From: Candidatus Tectimicrobiota bacterium
Lineage (GTDB): Bacteria; Tectomicrobia; Entotheonellia; Entotheonellales; Entotheonellaceae
DNA: 64,000 nt
Direction of reading: 5' to 3'
Assembly (NCBI GenBank): GCA_026005175.1
Contig: BPKO01000014.1
Coordinates: 1-64,000 of the forward strand
The first letter of the stretch is position 1. Each line of letters opens with the position of its first letter. A program made the translations under genes and the position numbers. Below are positions 32,413 through 39,294 of this stretch, piece by piece. The notes below the pieces were generated by a model, which was not told the origin of the DNA, ran no database searches, and saw only the letters and a program-made list of their open reading frames with translations.

Positions 32413-32418
32413 TATAAT
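32413..32418 (+). promoter_or_regulatory. Candidate -10 element of the coiled-coil gene
   Basis: A perfect TATAAT at 32413-32418 lies 19 bases before the ATG at 32438. No good -35 is seen at 17 bases. An in-frame ATG at 32417 overlaps this box and is therefore unlikely to be used if the promoter is real. Confidence 0.4.
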
Positions 32419-32437
32419 GGAAGGGCAGGAGGAAGCC

Positions 32438-33616
32438 ATGCCCTTTACCGATGAAGACTTCCAGGAGCTTATTCGGCTCATCGAAACGCACCCCGAGTGG
32501 CGTGCGGAGCTGCGCCGTCTTTTGCTCACCGACGAGCTCCTCGCCCTGCCGGGTCAACTGGCGGCGCTGCGCCAGGAGACGGAAGAGCGCTTCCAGCAGT
32601 TGCTGACAGCTCTAGAGCAGCTCGTGGCACAGATGACGTCTCTGGCGGAAGCGCAGCGAGAGACCGAGTCGCGCCTGGCGGCGCTGACGGCGCGGGTAGA
32701 GGCGCTGGCGGCGCGCCTGGAAGCGCTCGCAGCACGGGTCGAAGAGCTGGCGGAAGCGCAGCGAGAGACCGAGTCGCGCCTGGCGGCGCTAACGGCGCGG
32801 GTAGAGGCGCTGACAGAGCGGGTAGAGGCGCTGGCCGCGGCACAGCAGCAAACCGAGGCGCGTCTAGAGGCGCTGGCGGAAGCGCAGCGAGAGACCGAGT
32901 CGCGCCTGGCGGCGCTGACGGCGCGGGTAGAGACGCTGGCGGCGCGCCTAGATGCGCTGACAGAGCGGGTGGAAGAGCTGGCGGAAGCGCAGCGAGAGAC
33001 CGAGTCGCGCCTGGCGGCGCTGACGGCGCGGGTAGAGGCGCTGACAGAGCGGGTAGAGGCGCTGGCCGCGGCACAGCAGCAAACCGAGGCGCGTCTAGAG
33101 GCGCTGGCGGAAGCGCAGCGAGAGACCGAGTCGCGCCTGGCGGCGCTGACGCGCACGGTCCAGGCGCTGGTGATCGATGTCGGCGAGCTCAAAGGCGACA
33201 GCCTGGAGCGCCGCTATCGCGAACGGGCAGGGGCGTACTTTGCCCGCCTGCTTCGCCGGCCGCGGCTTTTGCCCGAGGAGGAGCTCGAAGCGGTGCTGGA
33301 AACCGCCGTGGCACGTGGCCTGCTCAGCGAAGCCGAAGCCCACGACGTCACTTGGGCCGACTTGCTCGTGCGCGGCAGGCGCCGCGACGACGATGCCGAA
33401 GTGGTGCTGGTGGTGGAAGTGTCGTGGGGCGTTGGCCCTCACGACGTGGAACAGGCCGCCCAACGCGCTGCCCTGCTCAGCCGCGCTGGGTTGCCTGCCC
33501 TGCCCGTCGTTGCCGGCAAAACCATCACGCCGGAAGCCGCCCGCCTGGCGCAGGCACGCCAAGTGTGGCAGGTGCTCGACGGCCAGATGGTCGTGCCTCC
33601 TTCCGATTCGCCCTGA
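32438..33616 (+). CDS. Coiled-coil repeat protein with PD-(D/E)XK-like C-terminal domain
   Basis: A 392-residue protein. The N-terminal 60 residues are helical. Residues about 68-238 form a long heptad coiled coil built from near-identical blocks that begin LAEAQRETESRLAALTARVEAL; blocks alternate 35 and 42 residues (5 and 6 heptads). The C-terminal domain (YRERAGAYFARLLR ... EAHDVTWADLLVRGRRRDDDAEVVLVVEVSW) has the arrangement of a PD-(D/E)XK nuclease fold as in DUF3782-type proteins, but the usual ExK reads EVS, so catalysis is doubtful. The start at 32438 follows GCAGGAGGA. Function is unknown. Confidence 0.75.
   Translation: MPFTDEDFQELIRLIETHPEWRAELRRLLLTDELLALPGQLAALRQETEERFQQLLTALEQLVAQMTSLAEAQRETESRLAALTARVEALAARLEALAARVEELAEAQRETESRLAALTARVEALTERVEALAAAQQQTEARLEALAEAQRETESRLAALTARVETLAARLDALTERVEELAEAQRETESRLAALTARVEALTERVEALAAAQQQTEARLEALAEAQRETESRLAALTRTVQALVIDVGELKGDSLERRYRERAGAYFARLLRRPRLLPEEELEAVLETAVARGLLSEAEAHDVTWADLLVRGRRRDDDAEVVLVVEVSWGVGPHDVEQAAQRAALLSRAGLPALPVVAGKTITPEAARLAQARQVWQVLDGQMVVPPSDSP
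32642..33151 (+). repeat. In-gene tandem repeat, 231-base unit
   Basis: A conserved segment of about 48 bases starts at 32642, 32747, 32873, 32978 and 33104. Intervals are 105, 126, 105 and 126 bases, so the true unit is 231 bases (77 codons), present twice plus a partial third copy. All intervals are multiples of 21 bases, which keeps the heptad register. Confidence 0.9.
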
Positions 33617-33654: not shown

Positions 33655-34224
33655 TCAGGTGTCGTAAGCGCCAAGGCTCTGCATGAAGCGGTGCTTGATG
33701 TAAGTGGGGCTCTTGGGCGGGCGTGCCGTGGCTTGCTGGTCGTCGACGCGCGCCACGATGATCCAGGGCCCCGGCGTGGCCATGGCCTGGAGAAAGGCCT
33801 GCTCAAAGGCTTCCTGCGTGTCTACGGCAACGACGCGCTCAAAGCCCGCCCCGCGGGCCAGCTGCGCCAGGTCGGCGCGAAAGGCGGTGTGCGTCGGCTG
33901 GCCGCCGGTGAGGGCGAACTGGCGGTTGTCCCAGATGACGTGGATGAGGTTCTGGGGGGCCCGCGCGGCTGCCGTGGTCAGGGCGTTGAGGTTCATGAGC
34001 AGTGCGCCGTCGCCGTCGAGCACGATGACTTTCTGCGCCGGGCGTGCCATGGCCAGCCCCAGCCCCATGGAGGCCGCCATGCCCATGGAGTTCCACATGT
34101 AAAAATTCTGCGGGCGATCCCCGGCGGCAAAGAGGTCGAACTTGGGATTGCCCAGCGAGGCAATAATGGGCTCGTCGTGTACTTGGGCAACGATGAAGCG
34201 CGTGGCGCGCAGGCGGTTGATCAT
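33655..34224 (-). CDS. TPP-dependent decarboxylase, TPP-binding (beta) subunit
   Basis: A 189-residue protein equal to the C-terminal TPP-binding half of phosphonopyruvate or sulfopyruvate decarboxylase. The TPP/Mg motif is LDGDGALLMNLNAL...VIWDN (GDG ... N). The upstream NFYMWNSMGMAASMGLGLAMARPAQKVIVLDGDG is typical of ComE/Ppd beta parts. The partner alpha-like subunit ends 5 bases before this start on the same strand. Together they would decarboxylate a 3-phosphono- or 3-sulfo-pyruvate. The nearby phosphonoacetate hydrolase gives mild support for a phosphono substrate, but sulfopyruvate is equally possible. Confidence 0.85.
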   Translation of the reverse strand: MINRLRATRFIVAQVHDEPIIASLGNPKFDLFAAGDRPQNFYMWNSMGMAASMGLGLAMARPAQKVIVLDGDGALLMNLNALTTAAARAPQNLIHVIWDNRQFALTGGQPTHTAFRADLAQLARGAGFERVVAVDTQEAFEQAFLQAMATPGPWIIVARVDDQQATARPPKSPTYIKHRFMQSLGAYDT

Positions 34225-34229
34225 CGCGG

Positions 34230-34745
34230 TTACCTCTCGTCTTTCCAGCCTGCCAGCTGGGTGGAAATGAGCACGGCAACGGGCTGTTCGGCGCTGTACG
34301 CCAGCTTCAAGGCGCCGGCGACCACCGTCGGTACTTCCGGGGCGTAACGCAGCACAAACGTGGGAATGTGCAGGGCGGCAAAGAGAGCCGGCAACGCCTG
34401 CCCCAGCGGCACCTGGGCGGCGTTGAATTCTCCGAGCTCTCCGCGCCAGCCAATGAACATGGGCAGCGGCACCTGGTAAGGGATGGCCAGCGAGGCCAAG
34501 GCGTTGAGGGCGTTGCCCACGCCGGCGGTGGGCATGAGCAGCGCGCCGCGCGCCCCGCCCATGTACTGGCCGGCGACCACCCCCACGCCTTCTTCCTCGC
34601 GCGCCAGGGGCAGAATGTCAAAAAAGGGATCCTGGCGCGCCAGGCGCAAGATCTGCTCGCCAATGGCGTCGGGGACGTAGCTGAGAAAGCGAATCCGATA
34701 CGCTTTGAGCTGCGCAATGATGTGCTGGGGCCAAGCCGTCTCCAT
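34230..34745 (-). CDS. TPP-dependent decarboxylase, PYR-domain (alpha) subunit
   Basis: A 171-residue protein equal to the N-terminal pyrimidine-binding half of phosphonopyruvate/sulfopyruvate decarboxylase. The catalytic Glu lies in LPLAREEEGVGVVAGQYMGGARGALLMPTAGVGNALNAL, the hallmark of this family. It continues with PLPMFIGWRGELGEF. The two subunits are on separate genes, as in ComD/ComE, rather than fused as in Ppd. It starts 11 bases after the OsmC-like stop and is followed by the beta subunit, forming a three-gene operon. Confidence 0.85.
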   Translation of the reverse strand: METAWPQHIIAQLKAYRIRFLSYVPDAIGEQILRLARQDPFFDILPLAREEEGVGVVAGQYMGGARGALLMPTAGVGNALNALASLAIPYQVPLPMFIGWRGELGEFNAAQVPLGQALPALFAALHIPTFVLRYAPEVPTVVAGALKLAYSAEQPVAVLISTQLAGWKDER

Positions 34746-34756
34746 GGGCGTTGTCC

Positions 34757-35230
34757 TTACCCCTCTTCCAGCTCCAAAGCGGTGGTGATGGCAATGCAGC
34801 CTCGCAAAGTGCGGGCCACCGGGCAGTAGTCGGCGTGGATGCGGTGGGCGCGCTCTGCCGCCTCGCGCTGCGCCGGGTCGAGCTTGAGCCGGTAAGTGAC
34901 GTGAATGCGGCGAATGACCAGGACGTTGCCGTCTTTTTCGATCTCCCCGCGGGCTTCGGCGCTCAGGCGCCCTTCCCCTGCTGCGATGCCGCGCGCTTCC
35001 AGCGCGCCTCCCAGAGTGCCGGTGAGTCAGCCGGCGGTGGCGGCCACCACGTAGTCAAGGGTGGTGGCGTGCGGCTCGTGTTCCTGCATGTTGACGCCAT
35101 AGTGGGCAGCGACTTCCGAGTGCACGCTAAAAAGCACCGGCTGCGCTTCTTGCGGCAGATAGGCCCGTCGCAGCGGCCCCTTGACGCGCTCGATGCGCAC
35201 CCGCGAGGTGTATACGACTTGCGAATCCAT
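34757..35230 (-). CDS. OsmC-family protein, probable selenoprotein with in-frame TGA
   Basis: The frame from 35230 encodes a 157-residue OsmC/Ohr-like thiol peroxidase if TGA at codon 68 (35029-35027) is read through. Residues 1-67 end with LDYVVAATAG and the sequence resumes as LTGTLGGALEARGI; in OsmC proteins the peroxidatic Cys occupies exactly this position (AGC-LT-like). The second conserved cysteine, Cys136, lies in HADYCPVARTL, 68 residues later; E. coli OsmC has 66 between its pair. No frameshift is needed. A SECIS-like hairpin follows the TGA. Sec replacing the peroxidatic Cys is the best reading; a nonsense mutation or base error is the alternative. It heads an operon with the split TPP decarboxylase. 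Confidence 0.8.
34991..35007 (-). promoter_or_regulatory. SECIS-like hairpin downstream of the in-frame TGA
   Basis: In the mRNA sense GCGCGC-UGGAA-GCGCGC forms a perfect six-base-pair stem with a five-base loop. The loop starts 25 nt after the UGA, and G is the second loop base. This agrees with the published bacterial SECIS model: loop 16-37 nt from UGA and a G among the first two loop bases. Confidence 0.6.
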
Positions 35231-35258
35231 ATCGTCTCCTCCATGACCCTGTAGGGCG

Positions 35259-36994: not shown

Positions 36995-38431
36995 TCAGGC
37001 CGAGGCCAGGGGAGAAAACCCCGTGACGTCAAGGTCAAAGCCGTACCCAAAGGGGGCAGCGTTCACCGAAGACACCGCAAGCCTTCCCGCCTCAAGGCGC
37101 AGCGTCGGCCAGCCCTGGGCGCTGCGCTGGTAGAGGTCAGGATGCGCAGCCAGCACCTGCGCCTGTACCGGCGGCGGCATCATCGACAGCCCGGCAAAGT
37201 AGTGGTGGCCGTTGCGCTCTACGCTGGCAATGCCCAGCAGAGCGCAGACCGCCAGGTCTTGAAGCAAGGACACCGGACCGATGGTGGTGAGATCCTCGCC
37301 GCTTAGAAGAAGCGGCGGTGCGGGCTGGCGGCGGCGCCGCCACGCCAGCAAGCAGGCATTGGCAATGCTCTTGCACACCCCTTTGCAGTTTTTGTGGCTG
37401 GTGCCGGCATAGCCCAGGCGCAGGGCGGTAGGCAGGCTGTCACAGGTGGCATCCGACTCGTCGATGATCACCGGCGGCCGTTGCGGCCAGGCGCGAAACG
37501 CCTCGGCCACCGCCGGCGCCAGGGCGACGTCGCGATGCAGGGGCTGCTCTACAAAGAGCAGGCGCGACAGCCAGGGGCGCAGGCGCGGCCGCGCTTGCAG
37601 CCGTTCCCAGAAAGCACGAAAGGCTTCTACCGAGGCAAACTGCTCGTTGCCGTCGAGGCTAAAGGCATAGTCAGGTGGGGCATGGGCCTCTAGCAGCGCC
37701 GCCAGGCGCTCCAGGCGCTCCAGGTCGGCGTCGGGGTCGCCGCTGACTTTGATTTTGAAGTGGCGCAGGCCGTACCGGGCAATACAGGCCAAGAGGCTCT
37801 GCGGCAGGCCGTCCTGGCAGCGCGCTGTCGGGGCGATCTCCGCGTCGGCAAGCGGGTCGGCCAGGCCCACCGTGTGGCGCAGCGTCAGCTGCGCCAGCGG
37901 GCGCGCCGGCAGCAGCTCGGCAGGGGAAAGCCCGGCCAGCTCGGGATGCACAGCCCCCAGGTCGAGGCCCAGGGCCCCCAGGCGCAGCAACGCCCACAGG
38001 GGCTGCTTGCGGGCGCGGCATACGGCGTCGAGCAGCGCGCGCTCCACCATGGAAACGCCAAACTGCACCAGCAGCGGCGGCAGTCCCTGCGCCGCGCCCC
38101 AGGCGCGCTGCGCCGCATCGAGCTGCTGCCAGAGGGCAAAGGCGCTCGGGCCACTTAGGCCCACGGCCGTGCGCAGCGCCTGGAAGAGCACCTGCTGCAT
38201 CTGCGCCACTTCCGCCGCAAAGGGCTGGGCCGGGTCTTTGGTGAACCATTTTGGCGGCAGGTGATCGGCGGCCAGTCCAGTGCAGACCTGACCGTCCACT
38301 TCGGCCTCGAGGCGGAGAAAGACGTGGGGCAGGCAGGTCATGGTGGCAATGCCGTACCTAAAGGGCATGCGGGTGTGCACCTCGAGCCCGTAGAAGGCAC
38401 CGCTGAGAATTCGCAGGCCCACCGCCCTCAT
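36995..38431 (-). CDS. Enolase-superfamily protein (muconate-lactonizing-enzyme-like)
   Basis: A 478-residue protein with the enolase-superfamily barrel: KxK in LRHFKIKVSGDPD, a metal ligand in FSLDGNEQF, Glu in LLFVEQPLHRD, Asp in VIIDESD, and a Lys in GTSHKNCKG opposite. The N-terminal capping domain has VHTRMPFRYGIATMT. It is longer than usual muconate cycloisomerases. The start at 38431 overlaps the SDR stop by ATGA, which fixes it. An open frame continues upstream antisense-free into the SDR because the SDR carries a frameshift; the fused reading is not real. The substrate is unknown. Confidence 0.82.
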   Translation of the reverse strand: MRAVGLRILSGAFYGLEVHTRMPFRYGIATMTCLPHVFLRLEAEVDGQVCTGLAADHLPPKWFTKDPAQPFAAEVAQMQQVLFQALRTAVGLSGPSAFALWQQLDAAQRAWGAAQGLPPLLVQFGVSMVERALLDAVCRARKQPLWALLRLGALGLDLGAVHPELAGLSPAELLPARPLAQLTLRHTVGLADPLADAEIAPTARCQDGLPQSLLACIARYGLRHFKIKVSGDPDADLERLERLAALLEAHAPPDYAFSLDGNEQFASVEAFRAFWERLQARPRLRPWLSRLLFVEQPLHRDVALAPAVAEAFRAWPQRPPVIIDESDATCDSLPTALRLGYAGTSHKNCKGVCKSIANACLLAWRRRRQPAPPLLLSGEDLTTIGPVSLLQDLAVCALLGIASVERNGHHYFAGLSMMPPPVQAQVLAAHPDLYQRSAQGWPTLRLEAGRLAVSSVNAAPFGYGFDLDVTGFSPLASA

Positions 38432-39235
38432 TCCTGCTCCAGAAAAGCGCGCTCCAGGCGCTGGAAGCGCCGCCGCAGCGGCTCCAGCCCCTCGGGATGG
38501 GTAAGGACGTACAGCCGGTTGCGGCGGACGGCCTGCAGCACCCGCTCGGCGACTTCCTCCGGGGTGAGGGTGCGGCCGATGAGCGCCACCGGCTCGCCGC
38601 GCGGATGGCCCTCGGGGTTGCGCAGCGCCGCCGGCCGGTGGCGCTCGCTGTCGCGGATGCGCGTGGCCACCCCCATGGGGCAGAGCACCGTCACGCCAAT
38701 GCCGTAAGGTTGCAGATCTTTGGCCAGGGTCTCCGAGAGGCCCACCACGGCGTACTTGGACGTGTTGTAGACGCCCAGCCCCTTGGAGGCAATCAGCCCG
38801 GCCATCGAGGCGGTGTTGACGATGTGGCCGCCTTGCCCGTGGGCGATCATGCCGGGCACAAAGGCGAGCAGGGCCGTGGATCACCCCCCACAGGTTGACG
38901 CCCAGCACCCACTGCCAGTCCTGGTAGGTGGCGGTCTCCAGCCCGCCCCACACCGACACCCCGGCGTTGTTGCACAGCAAGTGCACCGGGCCGTAGGCTT
39001 CCTGCACCCGCGCCGCCAGCGCCTGCACTTGCTCGAAAACCGCCACGTCGGTGCGCACCGCCAGTGCCTCGCCACCCTGCGTGGCAATGGCCTGCACCGT
39101 CTCCGCCATGCCCGCTTCGTCCACGTCGGCCACCACCACGCGGGCACCCTCGCGGGCAAAGACCAGGGCCATGGCGCGGCCAATGCCGCTGCCGCCCCCG
39201 GTGACCACCGCCACTCGCCCCTGCAAATGCTCCAT
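38428..39235 (-). CDS. SDR-family oxidoreductase, split by a frameshift
   Basis: The N-terminal part from 39235 has VAVVTGGGSGIGRAMALVFAREGARVVVADVD (NAD-binding) and LLCNNAGVSVWGG. It loses frame near 38871-38876; one surplus base in a GGG/CC stretch restores VIHGLLAFVPGMIAHGQGG. The rest has NTASMAGLIAS and the catalytic Tyr-x3-Lys in YNTSKYAVVGLSETLA. The joined protein has about 268 residues. It resembles the SDR group with C-terminal TPEEVAERVLQAVRRNRLYVLTHPE. The stop overlaps the enolase-superfamily gene (ATGA), so the two are coupled. Confidence 0.87.
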
Positions 39236-39265
39236 CGCTTTCCTCCCGTGCCGTGTGTGCGGGCC

Positions 39266-39294
39266 ATTGTAGCGCCAGCGGGCCAAAGGCACAA
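39266..39294 (-). promoter_or_regulatory. Putative promoter of the SDR-enolase-ABM operon
   Basis: On the minus strand TTGTGC (39294-39289) and TACAAT (39271-39266), 17 bases apart, lie 31 bases before the SDR start. Confidence 0.5.

Follow-up and report, generated by a model that had tools for sequence, protein, structure and literature searches.

OsmC-like selenoproteins carrying the motif UxxT have been described from metagenomes, with three sequences from the Sargasso Sea and five in the GOS data (PMC1088965, PMC2398784). A 2026 compendium of 119 families contains one OsmC entry, also UxxT (PMC13188914), and the text of the deep-Sep paper makes no mention of OsmC (PMC12013277). In the 2005 selenoprotein pipeline, a candidate needed two or more Cys homologues; searches relying on Cys/UGA pairs would therefore miss a family in which all members carry selenocysteine (Sec). 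In Ohr proteins, the catalytic triad is formed by the peroxidatic Cys (Cp), an Arg, and a Glu, and is accompanied by a resolving Cys (Cr) (PMC5962072).

An earlier note, made from sequence alone, had proposed an OsmC-like selenoprotein in the genome of a Candidatus Tectimicrobiota bacterium. Four lines of evidence support that reading: the conservation of the TGA, a complete Sec machinery, a constrained and covarying SECIS-like hairpin, and the placement of U68 opposite the peroxidatic Cys of Thermus thermophilus OsmC. On this basis, the gene product is very probably an OsmC-fold selenoprotein with Sec at residue 68 (probability, roughly 0.93).

An OsmC-family gene with one in-frame UGA

The gene lies in a 64,000-nucleotide stretch of contig BPKO01000014.1, here called the window. 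Translation agreed with the earlier description of a minus-strand frame open save for one TGA; the frame ends with TAA at 34759-34757, and codon 68 is its sole in-frame TGA (Table 1). The residues around this codon were also as claimed, reading LDYVVAATAG-U-LTGTLGGALEARGI and, farther on, CPVARTL before the TAA. A search against OsmC families, proposed earlier as a check, placed the protein (with C for U) above the curated cut-off of Pfam OsmC (PF02566; 54.4 versus 27.5 bits), and the match covered residues 56 to 150, spanning the TGA. The host assembly comprises 3.99 Mb in 14 contigs and is 77% complete. When all of it was searched with PF02566, two OsmC loci were identified, each with a single in-frame TGA.

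Table 1. Coordinates of the OsmC-family gene and its features in the window
Feature	Position	Strand	Basis
OsmC-family selenoprotein gene (probable), 157 aa, one in-frame UGA	34757..35230	-	ORF, PF02566, 80 relatives
UGA at codon 68, probable Sec codon (peroxidatic position)	35027..35029	-	Sequence, relatives, alignment with 1ukk
Ribosome-binding site GGAGGAG, before ATG at 35230	35236..35242	-	Sequence
Codon of invariant Cys136 (CP motif), probable resolving Cys	34823..34825	-	48-sequence alignment; CP motif of 1ukk
Codon of invariant Arg21, possible equivalent of the Ohr catalytic Arg	35168..35170	-	48-sequence alignment; inferred from Ohr (PMC5962072)
SECIS-like hairpin with GG in the apical loop (GCGCGCU-GGA-AGCGCGC; 22-38 nt past the U of UGA)	34991..35007	-	Folding, synonymous constraint, covariation

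Predicted fold and possible function

An AlphaFold model based on 48 family sequences had a pLDDT of 94.9, and its top PDB matches were all OsmC/Ohr proteins. The best was 2onf (VIA-align Z, 15.2; rmsd, 2.1 over 138 residues), with Z scores of 13.4 for 1ukk and about 12 to 13 for Ohr chains. Identity to solved OsmC/Ohr proteins was 10 to 22%, and phmmer found no match in the PDB sequences with the single window sequence, a family profile being required. In the profile alignment with T. thermophilus OsmC (1ukk), U68 falls on the AGC motif and C136 on the CP motif; U68 thus aligned with the peroxidatic Cys of that protein, the position to which the TGA had been assigned in the earlier note. Residues invariant across the 48-sequence alignment include R21, D59, U68, C136, and P137. 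C136 is the probable resolving Cys, and by analogy U68, R21, and C136 would be the natural counterparts of the Ohr Cp, Arg, and resolving Cys. The position of the Ohr catalytic Glu is taken in the profile alignment by the invariant D59, which may stand in for it.

This Cp/Arg/Cr layout suggests a peroxidase, and it is reasonably likely that the protein acts on organic hydroperoxides with Sec as Cp and an Se-S intermediate. SelB, bound to the hairpin that closely follows the UGA, would deliver Sec-tRNA(Sec), and Sec would enter at residue 68. As the peroxidatic residue, Sec68 would attack an organic, possibly lipid, hydroperoxide and be converted to a selenenic acid, which Cys136 would resolve as an Se-S bond for subsequent reduction by a cellular dithiol. 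The reductant of known Ohr enzymes is a lipoylated protein.

A possible but rather unlikely alternative is that this OsmC-fold selenoprotein has a role other than that of an organic hydroperoxide peroxidase, for example as a thiol-disulfide or selenium/sulfur-transfer enzyme. The apparent exchange of the catalytic Glu for an invariant Asp would suit such a role, as would the low identity to every solved OsmC/Ohr protein and the sulfopyruvate decarboxylase-like genes adjoining the window gene, although that neighborhood is not conserved. Against it, the U...CP pair and the invariant R21 fit the layout of a peroxidase, which is the function we favor.

Two genes on the minus strand (33655-34745) start 11 bp downstream of the OsmC gene and resemble the alpha and beta subunits of sulfopyruvate decarboxylase, both scoring below curated cut-offs. 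The pair is not conserved beside the OsmC gene in other genomes. No conserved operon could be identified across 80 loci, the TPP-enzyme neighbors of the window gene not recurring among them; genomic context is therefore uninformative on function. A 399-aa frame at 32417-33616 (plus strand) gave many weak matches to unrelated coiled-coil families and may be either the gene of a long coiled-coil protein or simply repetitive. Genes at 36995-39292 and at L001:1845-3251 (both minus strand) appear to be broken by indels, with only a partial match for a short-chain dehydrogenase and a second gene split between frames. Such breaks are consistent with assembly indel errors.

Relatives and conservation of the UGA

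An initial search of 116 near and far genomes gave nine matches, spread over eight genomes that include the host of the window itself; all had exactly one TGA. A wide scan using one genome per species (~85,000 species) identified 519 relatives, the best 80 of which were examined. Of the two peptide patterns with which relatives were retrieved, one includes the Cys itself; search bias, if any, thus favors Cys members. The earlier note had suggested aligning homologues at position 68, and TGA was found at this codon in 80/80 of the best relatives (of 519), with no Cys orthologue among them. Each of these 80 genes has one TGA and is then open to a normal stop, and most encode ~155 to 160 aa. According to record titles, relatives include members of the Chloroflexi (Anaerolineales, Dehalococcoidia/SAR202, Thermomicrobiales, and Thermoflexus), Acidobacteria, Desulfobacterales and other Deltaproteobacteria, Nitrospiraceae, Nitrospinota, KSB1, Spirochaetaceae, Gemmatimonadetes, and Actinobacteria. 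One of the genomes is that of an isolate, Geobacter argillaceus ATCC BAA-1139 (L092; locus on NZ_VLLN01000026.1), which carries TGA at the same codon.

Across 301 Chloroflexota genomes, all site-spanning matches with an E value below 1e-16 carry one TGA, and stop-free matches of the generic Cys-type OsmC that span the site start only near 1e-8. TGA-less matches with E values of 1e-13 to 1e-8 (G402 and G270) were rejected as Cys members, as they turned out to be fragments or decayed copies, none of which covers the site. The decayed copies at L140 and L141 lie in one Chloroflexota genome, G270, and their N-terminal halves are broken just before the Sec codon. The break points of L140 and L141 are nearly identical and carry similar unrelated sequence, as if an insertion were shared. 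From the best 80 of 519 loci read, the OsmC family of the window gene is likely all or nearly all Sec. The stronger proposal, an obligate-Sec OsmC branch found in many phyla, with UGA in all members and no Cys orthologue, and missed by Cys/UGA-pair searches, has in our view an even chance of being correct.

Decayed copies such as those in G270 raise the question of whether the window gene has itself become a pseudogene through a premature stop. Alternatively, translation might genuinely end at its UGA and yield a product of 67 aa. Both are very improbable, given that the protein is conserved past the TGA to the invariant C136-P137 in 48 aligned sequences, all 80 genes are open to one normal stop after the TGA, and synonymous sites downstream of the TGA are under constraint. 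The assembly does hold consensus errors, as the apparent indels in neighboring genes indicate, but the conversion of a Cys codon (TGC or TGT) into TGA by a sequencing or assembly error is less credible still: an identical TGA is present in 80/80 of the best relatives (of 519), which come from other assemblies and many phyla and include the Geobacter isolate, as well as in the nine first matches and in further Chloroflexota genomes. The earlier judgment that a base error was unlikely has therefore held.

A SECIS-like hairpin downstream of the UGA

The hairpin after the UGA (Table 1) has a predicted folding energy of -12.8 kcal/mol. A complete 6-bp stem was found in 63/81 genes, where 3.7 were expected when synonymous codons were shuffled within each gene, although kinship of the sequences inflates the hairpin counts. 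In the same 81 genes, the stem Ala codons are GCG in 89% (U+8) and 95% (U+11) of cases, compared with 30% for the other Ala codons of these genes, and Leu at U+9 is CTG in 90% versus 43% elsewhere. More distant members compensate, with the wobble base of the U+8 Ala codon tracking the middle base of the U+11 codon: GCG occurs with Ala GCG, GCA with Val GTG, and GCC with Gly GGG. Stem pair 27-35 is accordingly G-C, A-U, or C-G, and also occurs as G-U. The covariation score of 0.292 was equaled by 0/500 shuffles, and covariation on both sides is limited to this one stem pair. Sliding the hairpin partners abolished pairing, and RNAalifold recovered the same stem unprompted.

A shifted register, GCGCC-CUUGA-GGCGC, was present in seven genes, mostly from SAR202/Dehalococcoidia. 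Nine SAR202/Dehalococcoidia loci (L064, L066, L067, L070, L086, L087, L095, L096, and L102) have a variant stem after the TGA, and in most of them the register is shifted and the loop is CUUGA in place of UGGAA. In approximately 10/95 genes, neither register gives a complete stem; among these is the gene of G. argillaceus, whose stem looks weak. An Rfam scan of the region returned no SECIS family match, only noise. Taken as a SECIS-like element, the conserved hairpin is as expected of a bacterial SECIS and is a candidate SelB site.

Selenium machinery of the host genome

The presence of selA, selB, selC, and selD had been named as a check on the selenoprotein reading, and all four were found. 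selA (637.6 bits) and selB (391.7 bits) lie side by side on contig C3, ~7 kb from a tRNA-Sec of 97 nt with anticodon TCA and a long variable arm (76.5 bits). selD, on contig C9 (C9:120631-121554, minus strand; L103), is itself a UGA gene (CAGUASKMSP) and encodes a Sec-containing selenophosphate synthetase. TGA also serves as an ordinary stop, ending selA, selB, and several window genes, which indicates that the code of the host genome is not reassigned. Decoding of the UGA as Trp (code 4), or as Cys or Gly via another tRNA, is known in kind from UGA reassignment in some bacteria but has no specific support here and is exceedingly unlikely, as TGA additionally terminates the genes of 38/80 relatives, the genome holds tRNA-Sec, SelA, SelB, and SelD, and the codon occupies the place of the catalytic Cys.

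tRNA-Sec was detected in 35/40 genomes with the gene, compared with 2/14 well-known control genomes. Within the Chloroflexota, co-occurrence was not discriminating (24/28 genomes with the gene versus 226/301). tRNA-Sec is also present in near relatives that lack the gene, and the distribution of the gene is thus patchy independently of the Sec trait.

Significance

The 519 candidate loci from ~85,000 species genomes would add a widespread selenoprotein family. It is absent from the 119-entry 2026 compendium and from NCBIfam 20, and no description was found in the openly licensed literature. As the family is unnamed in the tools and lists checked, its members are likely annotated as proteins truncated at residue 67. 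A few all-Sec families are known. If all members do carry Sec, this one would offer a natural case for what selenium gives a peroxidase beyond sulfur, and if the obligate-Sec reading is true, the chemistry would need selenium. The family would also expose a blind spot in searches that rely on Cys/UGA pairs. With a member in the cultured G. argillaceus ATCC BAA-1139, it is open to experiment.

Comparison with known OsmC and Ohr proteins

The earlier note had referred to OsmC selenoproteins from metagenomes. These do exist (UxxT; PMC1088965; NCBIfam NF041052, OsmC-related (seleno)protein), but the window gene belongs to a different OsmC family. A member of the known type is present in the same genome: the second OsmC selenoprotein (C6:186412-186909, plus strand; L001:1342-1848) has the motif FULLTQ and matches NF041052 with 172.6 bits (cut-off, 95). 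Its relatives in G035 and G052 also have TGA. NF041052 is equated with the Sargasso UxxT family by name and motif. Neither the window protein nor its Geobacter relative matched NF041052 (NCBIfam 20), and BLASTP detected no similarity between the window and C6 OsmC proteins. OsmC proteins with Sec at Cp are therefore a known kind, and the distinctness of the window family from UxxT/NF041052 is well supported at the sequence level by these two results together with the motif U(L/M)TGT.

The two families have in common the OsmC superfamily, Sec at the peroxidatic Cys position, and a bacterial SECIS (SECIS-like in the window family) downstream. They differ in motif, as the window protein reads U68-L-T-G-T with T at +2 and +4 rather than +3, and in their homologues, as the published family has Cys forms, whereas none occurred among the best 80 of 519 relatives of the window gene. 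The OsmC peroxiredoxins (TIGR03562; PDB 1ukk and 1nye) share the fold, the two reactive positions, and the CP motif; they use Cys where the window protein would use Sec, and the latter scores 31.3 bits against a TIGR03562 cut-off of 85.8. Compared with Ohr (PDB 1n2f, 4xx2, and 6ebg), the window protein would have Sec as Cp, carries the invariant Asp59 in place of Ohr Glu51 by alignment, and is 14 to 20% identical, but has the same predicted fold (Z about 12 to 13) and, with R21 as the candidate catalytic Arg, a matching layout of Arg, Cp, and Cr.
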